Origin: Spirochaetaceae bacterium
GTDB taxonomy: Bacteria > Spirochaetota > Spirochaetia > B11-G9
Assembly: GCA_030633365.1 (NCBI GenBank)
Contig: DAOVSY010000183.1
Location: 1 to 6,147, forward strand
Direction: 5' to 3'
Length of the DNA: 6,147 bases
Of this stretch, positions 1 through 6,147 are shown one piece after another (the stretch's first letter is position 1; the number at the start of each line of letters is the position of its first letter). The notes beneath the pieces were generated by a model. It did no database searches. It had not been told where the DNA came from and saw nothing but the letters and a program-made list of their open reading frames with translations. Position numbers and translations under genes: made by a program.

Positions 1-1568
1 CAAGTGTTGGTCATGACGGTAATGGTATTTACGGCGCTGTATTTGTAACAGCTTTAATTTCAATGGCTTTTTCCAGTACTGATATTCCACAGATGATGGA
101 GAAGGCTTTGGAGCTTATTCCCTTAGACAGTGAATATACAAGGGTTGTTAAGGCTGTACGTGATTTCTATTTATCAAATTCAAATACGGAAACAGATGAC
201 TGGAGAGCCTGTAGGGATTTTCTTACCAGTGACTTTGGTTATGATAAGTATCCTGGGGTTTGCCACATAATTCCCAACTCTGGCGTAATTGCACTTGCTC
301 TTTATTATGGGAAAGGTGATTTTGCAAGGACTATAGAGATTGCTACTATGAGTGGCTGGGATACAGATTGTAATGCCGGGAATGTAGGCACTATCCTGGG
401 TGTTATGGCTGGTCAGGAGGGGATTCCTAAAAAATATAGCGAACCTATTAACGACTTTCATGCTGCCAGCAGTATATCCGGAGCATTAAATATTCTGGAT
501 CTACCTACGGTTTCAAAAGAACTTGCTATTCTTGGGCTAAATCAATTAGAAGATACCATTCCTGAAGAATGGAAGAAAGGTACTTTTTCTGATGATATCT
601 ATTTTGACTTTACAATTCCCGGAACTACTCATAGAATAAGAACTTCCAGTGATTATCTTACTCCCATGAAAATAAACAAACTCGGGGAAAAAAGAGAAGA
701 TGAATCCAGAATTTTTTATAAACCTTATTACAGAAGAGAAGATTTTGATGATGAACGTTATTCACCAACTTTTACACCTACTGTATTTCCGGGGCAGGTA
801 ATGCACATAGATCTAATGGTGGAAAAATTCAGCGGCCAGCGTATTAGTATTGCTCCTTATGTTCGGGACTCCTCCACAAAAAAGACACTGTCAGGTAAAG
901 AACTGTTTCCTGAATCAGAAAAAGAATTTACTGTAAATTGGACAATACCGGATGTTCCTTTTGCTGTAGATGAAGCAGGTTTACTTGTAAGAGGAATTGA
1001 CAGTGAAAAGTTTTTAGGGGAACTTAATATCTATAACTATTCAATATCCGGAAAAAAGAAGTTTAAAATTAATTTTGCTGATGAAGTGGAAGAATTCAAA
1101 GGACTAAGTAGATGTTCTTTAACAGGCGGAGCCTGGAGTATAGAAAAAGATCAGCTTAGTGTAATTACAAATGAAACTTTCCAACTCTATACTGGCCCAT
1201 ATTATTCCAGTGATTATATTGTAGAAGCAGTCCTTACTCCGGAATATGGAGAAAGTCATCTTATTGCTTTTAGATCAATAGGCACAGAAAGAGCTTACTT
1301 TTTTGGTTTTAATGGAAGTAATAAAGCTGCTCTTATAAAGCGTGATCATGAAAATACTGTACTCGAAGAGATTAATTTTTCCTGGAAAATGGGTAAAGAG
1401 TATCATCTTAAAGTAGATGCTGTTGGTGGATTATTTCGATGTTCTATTGATGGTAAGGAAATTATTAAATTTAAAGACAATAATTTTATTCCATCCGGAA
1501 TGGCAGGTCTTGGTAAGCTGGAACCTGGAAGAACACATTTTAAGAGTATTAGTTTTGAAGAAAGGTAA
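1..1568 (+). CDS. ADP-ribosylglycohydrolase family protein with beta-sandwich C-terminal extension (5' end missing)
   Basis: The reading frame is open from the window edge (first full codon at base 3), so the ATG at 63 is internal and the true start lies upstream. The first codons encode a GHDGNGIYGA-type segment. Bases 354-389 encode GWDTDCNAGNVG, the C-terminal metal-binding signature of the ADP-ribosylglycohydrolase (ARH/DraG) fold; its two Asp are expected to bind Mg2+, and the usual following Thr is Cys here. The other metal-ligand motif, near the N-terminus, is outside the window. After about base 580 the catalytic fold ends and roughly 330 residues of beta-rich sequence follow. The last 170 or so resemble a LamG / concanavalin-like (DUF1080-like) sandwich, with a segment reading YHLKVDAVGGLFRCSIDGKE. 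Family members hydrolyse N- or O-glycosidic bonds of ADP-ribose; the substrate here is unknown. The adjoining catabolic genes suggest a small-molecule glycoside rather than protein de-ADP-ribosylation (inference). The 3' end overlaps the nitrilase gene. Confidence 0.85.
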   Translation, partial: SVGHDGNGIYGAVFVTALISMAFSSTDIPQMMEKALELIPLDSEYTRVVKAVRDFYLSNSNTETDDWRACRDFLTSDFGYDKYPGVCHIIPNSGVIALALYYGKGDFARTIEIATMSGWDTDCNAGNVGTILGVMAGQEGIPKKYSEPINDFHAASSISGALNILDLPTVSKELAILGLNQLEDTIPEEWKKGTFSDDIYFDFTIPGTTHRIRTSSDYLTPMKINKLGEKREDESRIFYKPYYRREDFDDERYSPTFTPTVFPGQVMHIDLMVEKFSGQRISIAPYVRDSSTKKTLSGKELFPESEKEFTVNWTIPDVPFAVDEAGLLVRGIDSEKFLGELNIYNYSISGKKKFKINFADEVEEFKGLSRCSLTGGAWSIEKDQLSVITNETFQLYTGPYYSSDYIVEAVLTPEYGESHLIAFRSIGTERAYFFGFNGSNKAALIKRDHENTVLEEINFSWKMGKEYHLKVDAVGGLFRCSIDGKEIIKFKDNNFIPSGMAGLGKLEPGRTHFKSISFEER

Positions 1569-2412
1569 GAAAAACTTTAAACTTGCAATGGTTCAGATGC
1601 TGGTAGAGGGTGGTCTAAAAGAGAAAAATTTATCTCATGCAGAAGAACTTATTAAAGAAGCATCAGAAGGAGGAGCTCAGGTAGCTCTTCTTCCTGAATG
1701 CCTGGACCTTGGGTGGACTCATCCTTCAAGTAAGTTTGATGCGGAACATATTCCTACTGGTAGTCCCTTTAAAAGATTATCCCGGGCTGCTGAAAAAAAT
1801 AATATATATATTTGTGCAGGTCTCACAGAAAAAGTGCCGGAAAAAAATCCAGAAAAAAAAGACAGCAAAATATACAACTCAGCAGTTTTAATTGACAACA
1901 AAGGAGAGCTTAAATTAATTCACAGAAAATTAAATGAGCTTGATATTGGTCACAAATATTACAATTTAGGTGACAAATTAAATGTTGTAGAAACAGAGTT
2001 TGGTGTAATAGGGCTTATGATTTGTGCAGATGCTTTTGCAGAAGATCAGGTTATCAGCCGTTCTTTGTGCTACATGGGTGCAGATATTATTCTGTCCCCA
2101 TCATCATGGGCGGTATCAGATGAAAGAAAATATACCAAAGAAGACCCCTATGGGGAAATTTGGCGTAAGAACTATAACCCTGTTTCAAAGAATTATAGGG
2201 TATGGATTGCAGGGGTCAGTAATGTAGGGGAACTAAAAGAGGGTCCCTGGGCCGGTCGGAAATGTATAGGCAGTTCCCTTCTTTTTAATCCTGATGGTGA
2301 GGAAGTATTTCAAGGTCCATATGGTGTAGATGCAGAAACCATTTTGTATGCGGATATAACACCTGAAGATCGCCCCTTTCGCGGACATGACTGGTCAAAA
2401 ATGGAGAGTTAA
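1555..2412 (+). CDS. Nitrilase-superfamily carbon-nitrogen hydrolase (probable amidase)
   Basis: A cytoplasmic C-N hydrolase that would cleave an amide (less likely a nitrile or carbamoyl group) to a carboxylate plus ammonia or amine. All three catalytic residues are visible, numbered from the TTG at 1555: Glu48 in LLPECLDLG, Lys125 in HRKLNE and Cys157 in GLMICADAF. The 285-residue length is typical. The start is uncertain. The first beta strand is FKLAMVQM, and the ATG at 1588 would cut it off, so TTG at 1555 is preferred; it gives MKKGKKNFKLAMVQM and has a weak AAGAG about 8 bases upstream. That start overlaps the preceding gene by 14 bases. In-frame ATG codons further upstream (from 1417) would only add sequence that belongs to the preceding gene. 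A Lys/Glu-rich insertion (VPEKNPEKKDSK) with A7 and A8 runs lies at about 1835-1870. The next gene begins directly after the stop, implying co-translation. The substrate is unknown; the ligase and lyase downstream suggest the product acid is then activated with CoA. Confidence 0.88.
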   Translation: MKKGKKNFKLAMVQMLVEGGLKEKNLSHAEELIKEASEGGAQVALLPECLDLGWTHPSSKFDAEHIPTGSPFKRLSRAAEKNNIYICAGLTEKVPEKNPEKKDSKIYNSAVLIDNKGELKLIHRKLNELDIGHKYYNLGDKLNVVETEFGVIGLMICADAFAEDQVISRSLCYMGADIILSPSSWAVSDERKYTKEDPYGEIWRKNYNPVSKNYRVWIAGVSNVGELKEGPWAGRKCIGSSLLFNPDGEEVFQGPYGVDAETILYADITPEDRPFRGHDWSKMES

Positions 2413-3960
2413 ATGTCAAAGTTATTTGAATATCAGGGGAAAACCCTCCTAAAGGAAGGCGGATTCAAAATCCCCGAGAGTATTATTATAAAATCAGTGG
2501 ATGATGCAGAAAATGTATTTAAAGAAATTGGAACCGGTGTACTTAAGGCCCAGGTTTTTACAACAGGAAGAGCTGCCTTAGGGCTTGTTAAATTTCCTGA
2601 AACCCTCGAAGAGTTACGTTCTCTTATTAGTGAAATGCTTAGTCAAAGTATTAAAGGCTATAAAATCGAAACTCTTCTTTATGAGGAAAAACTTGATATC
2701 AAACAGGAATATTTTGCAGGAATTACCCTGGCTTCCGGAAAATCTTCTCCCACACTGGTATTCAGTTCCAGAGGTGGTTCCGGAATAGAAGAGATTGCGA
2801 CAAAATATCCTCGCTCAGTTTTTTTTCTGGATATAAATCCGGATAAAATTCCTTTACCCTTTGAGCTTATTCCTCTTTTAAAAGATACAGGAATATCCGG
2901 TAAAACATTAAACCTTCTTTCTGACTCTCTTATATCACTGGTTAAGACAGCAATTAAAACAGAAGCAAAAAGCCTGGAGATAAATCCTCTTGTACTAACG
3001 GAGAAAGGTCAAATTATTGCAGCAGACTGTCATATGACAGTGGATGATTACGCTGTATTCAGACATCCTGAATTTGGTATTGAAATTGCCCGTGAACTTG
3101 GTCATCCTCCTACAGAACTTGAAAAAATTGCATATGCAGTGGAGAAAGATGACTACAGGGGTACTTTCTATTTTATACAGCTGGAAGATAATTTTAAGAA
3201 GGGAGATGGAGTTTTAGGTTTCCATGGTGCCGGAGGCGGCGGGTCTATGATGAGCATGGATGCCCTCCAGAAATTCGGATACAAGGTAGCCAATTTTTGT
3301 GACACTTCCGGAAACCCTCCTGCTTCAAAAATATACAGGGCTGCAAAAATTATTTTATCCCAGAAAAATATTGACGGTTACTTTGGCTCCGGTTCCGGTG
3401 TTGCAAGTCAGGAACAGTTTTACAGTGCCAGAGGTATTGTCAAAGCATTAAGAGAGCTTAACCCTGAAATCCCTGTTGTATTCCGCCTTGGTGGCAATGG
3501 TGAGGAAAGAGCGATTAAGATTTTAGAGGATTATACAAAGGATTTAAGATCTGTTGTACTTTGTTATGGAAAAGATACCTCCGTAAGTGAATGTGCTGTG
3601 GAGATGAACCGCTTAATTGAGAATAAAAATTCTACTAATCAAAACTCAGCACTTAAGAGTATTGGTAATAACAGGAATTTAATATCAGATTATAGTTTTA
3701 AAACTGTTACCAATGGAACTGTTGGGTTTAATTATGCCTTATGTATCAGCTGTACTTCAAAAGTATGTATTTCAGAATGTCAGGGCGGCATTCTGGAAGA
3801 AAAAAATGGAGTTCCGGTTCTAAACATAAGTAAAGAGGAAGCAGCAAAAGGTAAGTGTACAGAATGCCTTGCCTGCGAAGTAGAATGTTTTGCCCATGGT
3901 AATGGGGGTGGAAGAATAGATCTTCCAATACCCGGTCTGGATAAGGAGGGCAGTGTATGA
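2413..3960 (+). CDS. SucC / ATP-citrate lyase A-like acyl-CoA ligase beta subunit fused to a 2[4Fe-4S] ferredoxin-type domain
   Basis: The ATP-binding subunit of an acid:CoA ligase. Residues 1-230 are the ATP-grasp domain: an N-terminal LFEYQGKTLLKEGG, a KAQVFTTGR segment (45-53), and the metal ligands Asn191 in EINPL and Asp205 in AADCH. Residues 264-400 are the CoA-ligase (flavodoxin-like) domain. There HGAGGGGS (271-278) and GSGSGVAS (325-332) replace the succinyl-CoA synthetase motifs NGAGLAM and FGGI-x-RC, and the segment is closer to ATP-citrate lyase. A polar Asn/Ser-rich linker (403-432) follows. Residues 437-495 carry eight cysteines in two groups: C444-x2-C447-x4-C452-x3-C456 and C482-x2-C485-x2-C488-x3-C492. 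This spacing suits two [4Fe-4S] clusters. SucC is normally about 390 residues, so the extra 115 or so are this domain. The gene starts one base after the nitrilase stop with GGAG upstream at 2403-2406, and ends in an ATGA overlap with its partner subunit. The substrate is unproven: citrate or another 3-hydroxy acid is likelier than succinate, given the lyase downstream. Confidence 0.88.
   Translation: MSKLFEYQGKTLLKEGGFKIPESIIIKSVDDAENVFKEIGTGVLKAQVFTTGRAALGLVKFPETLEELRSLISEMLSQSIKGYKIETLLYEEKLDIKQEYFAGITLASGKSSPTLVFSSRGGSGIEEIATKYPRSVFFLDINPDKIPLPFELIPLLKDTGISGKTLNLLSDSLISLVKTAIKTEAKSLEINPLVLTEKGQIIAADCHMTVDDYAVFRHPEFGIEIARELGHPPTELEKIAYAVEKDDYRGTFYFIQLEDNFKKGDGVLGFHGAGGGGSMMSMDALQKFGYKVANFCDTSGNPPASKIYRAAKIILSQKNIDGYFGSGSGVASQEQFYSARGIVKALRELNPEIPVVFRLGGNGEERAIKILEDYTKDLRSVVLCYGKDTSVSECAVEMNRLIENKNSTNQNSALKSIGNNRNLISDYSFKTVTNGTVGFNYALCISCTSKVCISECQGGILEEKNGVPVLNISKEEAAKGKCTECLACEVECFAHGNGGGRIDLPIPGLDKEGSV
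3943..3949 (+). promoter_or_regulatory. Strong Shine-Dalgarno for the SucD-like gene
   Basis: AAGGAGG lies 7 bases before the ATG at 3957, inside the last codons of the beta-subunit gene. It fixes the start of the alpha subunit and, with the ATGA overlap, supports translational coupling and equal production of the two ligase subunits. Confidence 0.75.
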
Positions 3961-4862
3961 GCATCCTTATTGGAAAAAACAAAAAGGTTCTTGTTCAGGG
4001 AATAACCGGTAGAGAGGGCAGAGCCCGGACAAAGCTAATGTTAGATATCGGTACTCAGGTAATTGCCGGTGTAACACCAGGGCAAGCCGGCCTCGAAGTA
4101 CTGGGAGTTCCTGTTTATGACACCGTATCCGAAGCGGTAAAAAGCCATGGAAGTATAGATATAACTGTAGTTTTTGTACCAGCTCCTCTGGTGAAAAATG
4201 CAGTAATTGAAGCATTTGCCTCGGGAATAAAACTTGCTGTTATTGTTCCGGACAGGGTTCCTGTTTACGATGTAATGGCAATATCCAGAGCTGCAAAAAT
4301 GTACGGTGCCCGTTTTACAGGCCCAAATACTCTTGGGATTCTATCTCCTGGTGTAGGTATTCTTGGGATGATTGGCGGAAATGCTGAGAGCGTGAAAAAA
4401 TGGTTCAAATCCGGACCTGTAGGGATAAGCTCCAGAAGTGGAGGCCTTACTACCTCAACAGCCTACTATCTTAACAAGGCAGGAATTGGTCAGAGTACAA
4501 TTGTTCATGTAGGAGGGGACTCTCTTATTGGATTGCCCCATCCGGTCGTTGTAAAACTCTTTCAGGAAGATGAAGATACTAAACTAATAGTTATACTTGG
4601 TGAAATCGGCGGCTCCCAGGAAGAAGATGTTGCAGAACTTCTCGTCAGTGGAAGGGTAACAAAACCAGTTGTAGCCTATGTCGGAGGGCGGGGTGCAAAA
4701 GAAGGTACCCAGTTTTCCCATGCAGGTGCTATAATAGAGGGTAACCGGGGTACGTATCAGGGAAAGGTCGACAGTCTTAGAGATGCAGGAGCTGTTGTTG
4801 TAGACGACATTAGTGATATATCCGGAGAAGTTAAGAAAATTTTAGATAAGTGGGAGGAATGA
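3957..4862 (+). CDS. SucD-like acyl-CoA ligase alpha subunit (CoA-binding, phospho-histidine)
   Basis: The partner of the preceding beta subunit. It binds CoA and carries the histidine that is phosphorylated by ATP and passes the phosphate to the acid. The N-terminal Rossmann CoA-binding domain contains VLVQGITGREG (11-21) and GVTPGQAG. Next come GPNTLGILSPG, SSRSGGLTTS and IVHVGGDSLIG, then LGEIGGSQEE and the active-site His255 in QFSHAGAIIEG. The length of 301 residues matches SucD (about 290). It departs from true SucD in several places. The usual TEGIP is PDRVP (Asp99 where Glu is normal). GPNCPG is GPNTLG. SGTLTYE is SGGLTTS. LGEIGG with a GRVTKP segment and QF-x-HAGA resemble ATP-citrate lyase. 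This points to a substrate other than succinate. The start is fixed by AAGGAGG 7 bases upstream and overlaps the beta subunit stop by 4 bases. Confidence 0.9.
   Translation: MSILIGKNKKVLVQGITGREGRARTKLMLDIGTQVIAGVTPGQAGLEVLGVPVYDTVSEAVKSHGSIDITVVFVPAPLVKNAVIEAFASGIKLAVIVPDRVPVYDVMAISRAAKMYGARFTGPNTLGILSPGVGILGMIGGNAESVKKWFKSGPVGISSRSGGLTTSTAYYLNKAGIGQSTIVHVGGDSLIGLPHPVVVKLFQEDEDTKLIVILGEIGGSQEEDVAELLVSGRVTKPVVAYVGGRGAKEGTQFSHAGAIIEGNRGTYQGKVDSLRDAGAVVVDDISDISGEVKKILDKWEE
4852..4857 (+). promoter_or_regulatory. Shine-Dalgarno-like GGGAGG at the end of the SucD-like gene
   Basis: GGGAGG sits in the last codons of the alpha-subunit gene. It is 11 bases before the GTG at 4869 and 14 before the ATG at 4872, the possible starts of the small ORF that follows. 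It could also simply encode the Trp-Glu-Glu C-terminus, so it is only suggestive. Confidence 0.4.
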
Positions 4863-4868
4863 TAAAAA

Positions 4869-5030
4869 GTGATGAGTTATTATCTTGAAATAAATACAGG
4901 TTCTTTTTATCATTTAGCGGCAGAGACTTTCCGTGAATTTAATATAGAAATGAGCTATCAGAATAAATCAAAGGAAAGTGCTCGAAAGCGATTATGGGAG
5001 ATTCCTTATGTCAGAGAGCAGGTTAAATAA
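4869..5030 (+). CDS. Candidate small protein gene (52-53 residues), function unknown
   Basis: A short open frame begins with GTG-ATG at 4869/4872, 6 bases after the alpha-subunit stop, and ends at the TAA at 5028-5030, so it overlaps the lyase gene by 23 bases. It fills almost the whole of the only real gap between the main genes and has GGGAGG upstream at an acceptable distance. The predicted protein begins MSYYLEINTGSFYHLAAETF and ends in a basic stretch containing SARKRLWEIPYVREQVK. It has no signal peptide, membrane segment or cysteine, and I do not recognise a family. The codons resemble those of the neighbours. It may be a genuine small accessory protein or a leader that couples translation into the lyase gene, whose ribosome binding site lies within it. 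A chance frame of this length is also quite possible. Confidence 0.4.
   Translation: MMSYYLEINTGSFYHLAAETFREFNIEMSYQNKSKESARKRLWEIPYVREQVK
4996..5000 (+). promoter_or_regulatory. Shine-Dalgarno that decides the lyase start
   Basis: GGGAG lies 7 bases before the ATG at 5008. The longer in-frame GTG start at 4978 has only an AAGGAAA directly abutting it, too close to work, so 5008 is the preferred start of the citryl-CoA-lyase-like gene. Confidence 0.7.
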
Positions 5031-5835
5031 CATGGTGGGAAATAATAGTCCAAAACCCTGGGAGACAAAAATAACAGAAATAAAAAAAGATGAGATTAGA
5101 GTACATGGATATCGCCTGGATGAGCTTATGGTTAAGCGAAGTTTCAGCGATATGGTTTTTTTAATGTTAAAGGGTCAGCTCCCTTCGGAAAATGAGGGAA
5201 AGATACTCGATATAATGCTGGTTTCCTGTATCGATCATGGTGTAACCCCTCCCTCTGCCCTTGCAGCTTTAACATCAGCGTCGACAGGTGCTCCTTATAA
5301 TGGAGCCCTTGCAGCGGGGATTCTTTCCATTAACGAACATCACGGCGGGGCAATAGAAAATTCCATGAGAATGCTTATGGAACTTCAGGTAATTCTGGAT
5401 AGTTCAAAGGATACCGGTAGAGATTTTTCTGAAGCCGTTAACCTCCTTGTTTCCCAATACAAAGATCAAAATCGCAGGCTCCCTGGGTTTGGTCATAGAA
5501 TTCATAAAAATGATCCCCGGACAGCTAAGTTACTGGATCTTGCAGATGAGTTTGATCTTGGAAACACCTGGGTTCGACTTCTGACAGGCCTTAAGGATGG
5601 TGTTCAAAAGTCCACAGGGAAGGATCTTCCCATAAATGTAGATGGTGCAATTGCGGCTCTTCTTCTGGAACTGGGAATTGCTCCGGAGCTTGCCAACTCC
5701 TTTTTTATTATGGCAAGGGTGCCCGGGCTTGTGGCTCATATTCACGAAGAAAAAACTATTCAGAAACCCATGCGCAGGATCGACCCTGTAAATCATATTT
5801 ATACAGGTACTGAAGCAAGAGATATTCCTGAATAG
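5008..5835 (+). CDS. Citryl-CoA lyase-like protein (short citrate-synthase fold)
   Basis: A citrate-synthase-superfamily enzyme expected to catalyse retro-Claisen cleavage of a 3-hydroxyacyl-CoA such as citryl-CoA, giving acetyl-CoA plus oxaloacetate. Catalytic positions are visible, numbered from ATG 5008: His77 in CIDHGVTPPSAL, His112 in HHGGA, His163 in PGFGHRIHKNDPR, Asp212 in INVDGAIAALLLELG, and the ARVPGLVAHIHEE segment with Arg237 and His244. The C-terminus KPMRRIDPVNHIYTG matches the family's RP-x-x-Y-x-G region. At 275 residues it lacks the N-terminal part of true citrate synthases (about 370-430), and its size fits stand-alone citryl-CoA lyases and the C-terminal module of ATP-citrate lyase. 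It follows the ligase subunits, so it probably cleaves the thioester they make. Citrate is the default guess; a related 3-hydroxy acid (for example citramalate- or methylcitrate-like) is possible. It is unrelated to the CitE-type lyase, which has a TIM-barrel fold. Confidence 0.87.
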   Translation: MSESRLNNMVGNNSPKPWETKITEIKKDEIRVHGYRLDELMVKRSFSDMVFLMLKGQLPSENEGKILDIMLVSCIDHGVTPPSALAALTSASTGAPYNGALAAGILSINEHHGGAIENSMRMLMELQVILDSSKDTGRDFSEAVNLLVSQYKDQNRRLPGFGHRIHKNDPRTAKLLDLADEFDLGNTWVRLLTGLKDGVQKSTGKDLPINVDGAIAALLLELGIAPELANSFFIMARVPGLVAHIHEEKTIQKPMRRIDPVNHIYTGTEARDIPE

Positions 5836-5909: not shown

Positions 5910-6147
5910 ATGTTACCTAAGGATATTACAAAACTAGCATTTCAATTTAAAGAAACAAATAATATACCTTTTACAATATTTATTGATAAAACATATAATA
6001 AGCAGCTTGATGATTATATGGGTGGTTCTGAGTGGAGAAACTCAATACCAAAATATACAACAATTGTTTCCGGAGTCGATTTACCTCTAAAGAAGGGGGG
6101 GCTGGAACTTCTTCCAGATGGCAGTTTGAAAGATCCTTTTGGGACTA
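5910..6147 (+). CDS. Uroporphyrinogen-decarboxylase-like (URO-D/MtaA superfamily) protein, N-terminal fragment
   Basis: The frame is open from ATG 5910 to the window edge, about 79 codons, and the 3' end is missing. The visible N-terminus shows the pattern of URO-D-like proteins that are not haem enzymes: an initial helix, then NIPFTIFIDKTYNKQLDDYM, GGSEWRNSIPKY, a VSGVD segment, and LPDGSLKDPFG, which matches the usual LEDGRYRDPFGT-like strand pair. This superfamily contains true uroporphyrinogen decarboxylase (HemE) and corrinoid or coenzyme M methyltransferases such as MtaA and CmuA, plus many uncharacterised members in catabolic clusters of anaerobes. The context argues against haem synthesis. 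Whether it is a methyltransferase cannot be judged because the zinc-binding residues would lie beyond the window. A run of seven G lies at 6095-6101 inside the gene. Confidence 0.65.
   Translation, partial: MLPKDITKLAFQFKETNNIPFTIFIDKTYNKQLDDYMGGSEWRNSIPKYTTIVSGVDLPLKKGGLELLPDGSLKDPFGT

Follow-up and report, generated by a model that had tools for sequence, protein, structure and literature searches.

A ferredoxin-type cysteine tail on a SucC/CcsA-like acid:CoA ligase subunit from Spirochaetota and other bacterial phyla

In central metabolism, acid:CoA ligases of the succinyl-CoA synthetase (SCS), citryl-CoA synthetase (CCS), and ATP-citrate lyase (ACL) superfamily account for steps that yield ATP or cleave citrate, proceeding by way of an acyl phosphate, a phosphohistidine, and a CoA thioester. 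The protein described here has its nearest solved relative, by sequence and fold, in the SucC beta subunit (structures 3ufx and 1jkj), from which it differs by an added tail of about 100 residues and by a score under the cut-off of the SucC model TIGR01016. It shares the GGGGS and GNPPA motifs with CcsA (6hxq), which is paired with citryl-CoA lyase (6hxp), and a lyase-like gene accompanies it in all five related Spirochaetota loci; however, its family carries ASQE where CcsA has the ANNT loop and forms a separate clade. The likeness to ATP-citrate lyase A consists of the GNPP motif and a match slightly above the Citrate_bind cut-off, whereas the lyase of the fused family is encoded by a separate gene. 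The tail recalls dicluster [4Fe-4S] ferredoxin domains (Fer4_9; the PadI and HgcB models) in its two four-cysteine motifs and in weak matches to these models, but it falls below the Fer4_9 cut-off and has no proline directly after the motifs. The reading preferred here, with a probability of about 0.48, is that of a distinct branch of the superfamily, ancestrally fused to this domain, that would cleave a citrate-like acid together with a lyase and whose tail would serve mainly in docking or assembly.

The window, i.e., the whole stretch of DNA analysed, comprises 6,147 nt of the forward strand of contig DAOVSY010000183.1 (assembly GCA_030633365.1) from a Spirochaetaceae bacterium. It contains the following features:

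3..1568, + strand: ADP-ribosylglycohydrolase-like protein, 5' end beyond the window (Pfam PF03747, 7e-24)
1564..2412, + strand: carbon-nitrogen hydrolase of the amidase/nitrilase family, start uncertain (Pfam PF00795, 1e-32)
2413..3960, + strand: SucC/CcsA-like acid:CoA ligase subunit with ferredoxin-type tail, open reading frame of 515 residues
2419..2994, + strand: ATP-grasp_2 domain, residues 3-194 (Pfam PF08442, 1.7e-35)
3226..3594, + strand: ligase or citrate-binding-like domain, residues 272-394 (Pfam PF16114, Citrate_bind, 29.2 bits, cut-off 26.8)
inside 3226..3594, + strand: GAGGGGS (residue 272) and SGNPPA (residue 299), from the motif alignment
3388..3417, + strand: substrate loop specific to the family, SGSGVASQEQ, residues 326-335 (in 119 of 120 full-length proteins)
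3625..3687, + strand: polar linker, about residues 405-425, of low confidence (pLDDT 76 over 401-410, 56 over 411-420)
3691..3927, + strand: dicluster ferredoxin-type domain, residues 427-505
3742..3780, + strand: cysteine motif I, C444, C447, C452, and C456, CxxCx4CxxxC (pattern in 121 of 121 proteins)
3856..3888, + strand: cysteine motif II, C482, C485, C488, and C492, CxxCxxCxxxC (pattern in 121 of 121 proteins)
3957..4862, + strand: SucD/CcsB-like subunit with HAGA (His255) and GEIGG, its first 4 nt shared with the fused gene
5008..5835, + strand: citryl-CoA lyase-like protein with DHG, GHR, and NVDG motifs (NCBIfam NF004869, 247.7 bits, cut-off 212)
5910-6146: beginning of another gene, 79 residues, open at the window end (best Pfam match MACPF_D3, E 0.012, unconvincing)

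The matches to ATP-grasp_2 and Citrate_bind together with the eight-cysteine tail bear out an earlier note on this DNA, which had described the frame as a SucC/ACL-A-like CoA ligase beta subunit joined to a two-cluster ferredoxin domain. The eight cysteines lie at the residues it had named, their codons falling within 3742-3888.

The ligase half departs from SucC in its overall scores (212.4 bits against a cut-off of 375.55 for TIGR01016; 217.8 against 370 for NF001913), and on these scores, together with its non-SCS carboxylate-site motifs, annotation as plain SucC was rejected. Among solved structures, the closest by sequence is nevertheless SCS (3ufx, 182 bits) rather than CCS (6hxq, 130 bits), and the ATP-grasp half has a mean identity of 37% to four SucC rows versus 27% to 20 CcsA rows; mean identity of the ligase core to two AclA-like rows is about 23%. 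The ATP-grasp residues Lys45, Arg53, Glu99, Glu189, Asn191, and Asp205 are invariant in a 114-row alignment (A2: 114 of the 121 proteins, without P0002, P0015, P0018, P0020, P0032, P0061, and P0088). The active-site half is mixed, the GGGGS and GNPPA motifs of citryl-CoA synthetase standing beside a loop of its own. Both motifs occur in all 121 fused proteins and, among the 120 CcsA matches listed, in 120 (GGGGS) and 119 (GNPPA); they are absent from the four aligned SucC rows, where NGAGLAM, GGGA, and FGGI stand against GGGGS, GNPPA, and SGSGVASQEQ of the fused family. The Citrate_bind model matches none of 14 control genomes, a list that includes E. coli and B. subtilis.

The SGSGVASQEQ loop differs from the aligned SCS, CCS, and ACL rows alike. 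As it lacks the ANNT-type residues of CCS and ACL, which we take to be the citrate loop from their role in human ACLY, citrate itself may be the wrong substrate. In the superfamily tree (28 of the 121 fused proteins, forming alignment A1, 20 of the 120 CcsA matches, two AclA-like rows, and four SucC rows), the fused proteins form one clade with support of 100/99, separate from the sampled SucC, CcsA, and AclA rows, with a warning from the tool about long branches. The SucC rows are 3ufx and three of 11 Spirochaetota loci, the other eight having failed the start-motif filter.

The homologue search scored 7997 candidates, of which 6592 passed E<=1e-10, a total that probably includes ordinary SucC, and the best 120 were taken. 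The eight-cysteine pattern is complete in all 121 proteins considered (P0001 and these best 120 of 6592), and hence not a matter of chance; the count covers the closest relatives, exceptions turning up farther out in a length-restricted search. The spacer between the motifs measures 25 residues in 104 proteins and 26 in 17. In alignment A2 all eight cysteines are invariant, as are Leu504 and Pro505 of the tail. The earlier note had found the four-residue gap of the first motif and the missing prolines after C456 and C492 unusual. The gap is present but not odd, and proline follows the fourth or eighth cysteine directly in none of the 121 proteins; being shared across this set, both are family traits. 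DmsB/PsrB-type ferredoxin subunits have the same gap in their first motif. Neither four-cysteine motif occurs in any of the 120 CcsA matches listed.

Annotation has overlooked the tail, since the precomputed Pfam domains of the 120 best-listed homologues include no ferredoxin domain. Pfam and NCBIfam leave it unannotated also here: the Fer4_9 match at residues 444-492 reaches 18.4 bits, under the cut-off of 27, and a match of this type at E<=0.01 is found in 13 of 28 members examined. The full-length AlphaFold2 model, built on the 114-row alignment, has a mean pLDDT of 89.3, with 92-97 over residues 431-500; the linker is loose near 411-420 and probably flexible. On this predicted model Foldseek and VIA recover the ATP-grasp plus ligase fold. 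The tail fold is itself a prediction, as the structure rows of VIA span well only residues 1-405 and match the tail to no fold; modelled alone, the tail has a pLDDT of 39, and the sequence search for a solved relative of it gave no significant match (best E 0.078). Judging from the cysteine pattern, two [4Fe-4S] clusters per tail are probable in most members, and the strict conservation of these cysteines among close relatives is an argument for a role of the clusters in most lineages.

Five related loci (L001, L002, L003, L016, and L017), each from another Spirochaetota genome, share the arrangement of the window. The fusion is in frame in all five, as it is in the 121 proteins, which refutes the idea that a sequencing or assembly error joined a separate ferredoxin gene to sucC; nothing was found in favour of such an error, which the earlier note had named as a way to overturn its claim, and its probability is practically nil. 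The SucD-like gene adjoins the fused gene in 5/5 loci and is followed by the citryl-CoA lyase-like gene, an order that suggests ATP-dependent splitting of a citrate-like acid in two steps. The best solved match of the lyase-like protein is citryl-CoA lyase 6hxp (191.5 bits; next match 64.2). An ADP-ribosylglycohydrolase-like gene lies upstream of the fused gene in 5/5 loci, cut by the contig end in L003 and, like the lyase gene, in L002, where its last 36 residues are present. The carbon-nitrogen hydrolase between glycohydrolase and ligase is shared by the window and a single one of the five related loci (L017 5682-6506), and is thus optional to the operon. The gene starting at 5910 has no counterpart in the five loci. 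This gene context describes Spirochaetota, the first branch in the tree built without the tail.

Farther upstream, Pfam matches in L001 indicate a LacI regulator, a second ADP-ribosylglycohydrolase, two ABC permeases, and a solute-binding protein, and the gene order of L017 is the same as judged by eye from frame sizes and opening residues. The permeases and solute-binding protein come without an ATPase among the genes scanned (L001 1626-9182; L017 6506-14180). The transport and glycohydrolase neighbours suggest import and breakdown of a glycoside that might feed the CoA ligase and lyase. An ordinary-type citrate synthase is encoded on other contigs of the five related genomes (in one as a partial frame, in one in two pieces). 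One of the genomes with a fused ligase encodes, at L047 (G201:C219:18930-19508), another and more distant member of the citrate synthase family that has the size of a citryl-CoA lyase (284-residue frame, 73.8 bits). Apparent two-gene ATP-citrate lyases occur in two genomes drawn as relatives, G207 (L018 702-4005, 415 and 688 residues) and G243 (L019 8340-11655, 416 and 708 residues), a call made from the match of the first gene to Citrate_bind.

The exceptions to the cysteine pattern come from a search with a 266-residue piece of the ligase half as query among candidates shorter than the fused form (1559 at E<=1e-30, 120 listed). The 120 listed proteins comprise 79 with all eight cysteines, 29 with short tails, five of middle length, and seven long ones without the full pattern. 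By eye, 20 of the 29 short-tail proteins appear naturally ended, at 404-439 residues; all 20 have GGGGS, 16 the SGSGVASQEQ loop, and 12 GNPPA. Among 84 readable long tails, five (P0288, P0320, P0359, P0356, and P0354) have lost at least four cysteines, the other 79 being intact. These cysteine-poor tails align along the whole domain, and four of the five proteins keep SGSGVASQEQ, P0356 being without the exact loop. None comes from a named isolate, P0359 is labelled Planctomycetes, the contigs of four measure 1.5-4.3 kb, and the start of P0288, whose contig has 495 kb, is odd; all five are thus in need of confirmation. Left uncounted are P0287 and P0305, which look frameshifted, and the middle class (P0251, P0270, P0275, P0328, and P0345), which seems to be truncated or frameshifted.

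In a tree from which the tail was left out (32 intact rows, i.e., the 28 of A1 and four of the 79, with five cysteine-poor, 18 tail-less, and eight outgroup rows), the tail-less proteins form one clade nested among the fused ones (17 rows, 100/97; 18 rows, 87/82), and the cysteine-poor proteins fall at three places. The Spirochaetota group of the window branches first, and the inner order is moderately supported. Three of the 18 tail-less rows are named, all of them Bacillota, and one row, P0331, may be a cut-off piece. The simplest reading of this topology is an ancestral fusion, with the tail lost or split off once. The existence of tail-less relatives and cysteine-poor tails makes the clusters look dispensable in some lineages and, where the ligase loop is unchanged, not needed for catalysis. 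Part of this set may have another substrate and be less telling for the enzyme of the window, as the exact loop is missing from P0356 and from four of the 20 proteins without a tail, and GNPPA is found in 12 of the 20.

Under the preferred reading, the fused protein would be the ATP-grasp subunit of an unnamed branch of the superfamily. With the SucD-like subunit it would convert its acid to an acyl phosphate, then a phosphohistidine, and finally a CoA thioester, as its conserved residues and the mechanism of the superfamily suggest; the lyase-like protein of Spirochaetota would then release acetyl-CoA and a 2-oxoacid from the CoA ester. Ligase and lyase might thus constitute a two-step equivalent of ATP-citrate lyase, with citrate or a similar 2-hydroxy acid as the substrate. 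The tail is envisaged mainly as a docking or assembly module keeping the ligase in a larger complex; its clusters could vanish while the domain stays, and one clade would do without the domain or possibly encode it as a separate gene. No docking partner was seen. Counted against the citrate part is the overall sequence, nearer SCS than CCS. The same proximity underlies the view that the protein is an ordinary SCS beta subunit with an ornamental iron-sulfur domain: its nearest solved relative is an SCS beta subunit by sequence and fold, and the ATP-grasp half is closer to SucC than to CcsA. Against it stand the score of 212 of 375 bits, the carboxylate-site motifs, which are not those of the SCS rows, and the citryl-CoA lyase-like gene that follows in 5/5 loci, and this view is considered unlikely.

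The earlier note had offered redox gating, docking to an oxidoreductase, or a structural role for the tail, and these have fared differently. Gating, in which clusters sensing the state of ferredoxin or oxygen would switch the ligase on and off, would explain why a non-redox enzyme carries conserved putative clusters behind a low-confidence, probably flexible linker; it is weakened by relatives, most with the same substrate loop (16 of the 20 tail-less ones), that lack the tail or, as in the five cysteine-poor proteins, at least half of its cysteines, and it now appears improbable. By the same sequence comparisons, a docking or structural role fits better. A more specific proposal makes the tail an electron-transfer or docking ferredoxin (KorD/PorD-like) for a 2-oxoacid:ferredoxin oxidoreductase within a channelling complex. 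The two complete cluster motifs in 121/121 close relatives and the presence of POR_N genes in 5/5 related genomes agree with it. A further lead is that aquatic Cloacimonadota, according to an excerpt of PMC13082233, co-encode 2-oxoglutarate:ferredoxin oxidoreductase (KOR) and succinyl-CoA synthetase, and one homologue (P0102) comes from Cloacimonetes, possibly with a different ligase. However, the POR_N genes all lie on contigs other than that of the ligase, no oxidoreductase gene stands beside it in the window, in L001 (by Pfam), or among the frames of L003, L016, and L017 (by eye), and tail-less and cysteine-poor relatives exist. A link of the tail to such an oxidoreductase is plausible, while the full proposal seems doubtful. 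Comparably doubtful is a broader picture of a widespread iron-sulfur ligase family that would act on an acid unlike those of the known succinate and citrate enzymes, be tethered by its tail to a ferredoxin-dependent 2-oxoacid oxidoreductase, and so couple ATP turnover to low-potential electron flow, the tether sometimes being cluster-free.

Members of the family are named in the sources from about ten phyla. The best 120 of 6592 homologues include Spirochaetes, Calditrichaeota, Zixibacteria, Gemmatimonadetes, Marinimicrobia/Fidelibacterota, Cloacimonetes (P0102), Coatesbacteria, Anaerolineales, and Acidobacteria, and where source names are given they are mostly 'succinyl-CoA synthetase' or 'acetate--CoA ligase family protein'. 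Within Spirochaetota the fused form is rare (1/198 and 5/394 genomes at E<=1e-60); 394 genomes of the class and 297 relatives yielded no carriers beyond the same five genomes. At this threshold, 11 of 392 genomes matched, namely G205 and ten with frames of 387-429 residues that match the model only to position 360. A single-protein scan of genome contigs gave three loci, all from Spirochaetota. Viral contigs gave no match to the fused ligase, and all plasmid matches stayed below 60% identity (best listed 31.9%). The portions of the open-access literature that were covered, among them passages of PMC3578206, PMC9802188, PMC11237513, PMC5317091, and PMC13082233, showed no account of a fusion between SucC and a ferredoxin.

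A ligase branch spread across many phyla thus carries a module unseen in precomputed Pfam domains. What is new here are the tail-less relatives and the cysteine-poor tails, which constitute evidence against redox gating; the latter form a natural mutant series on which docking and redox roles are directly testable. Should the acid be other than succinate, the pathways predicted for many uncultured bacteria would be wrong at the ligase step.
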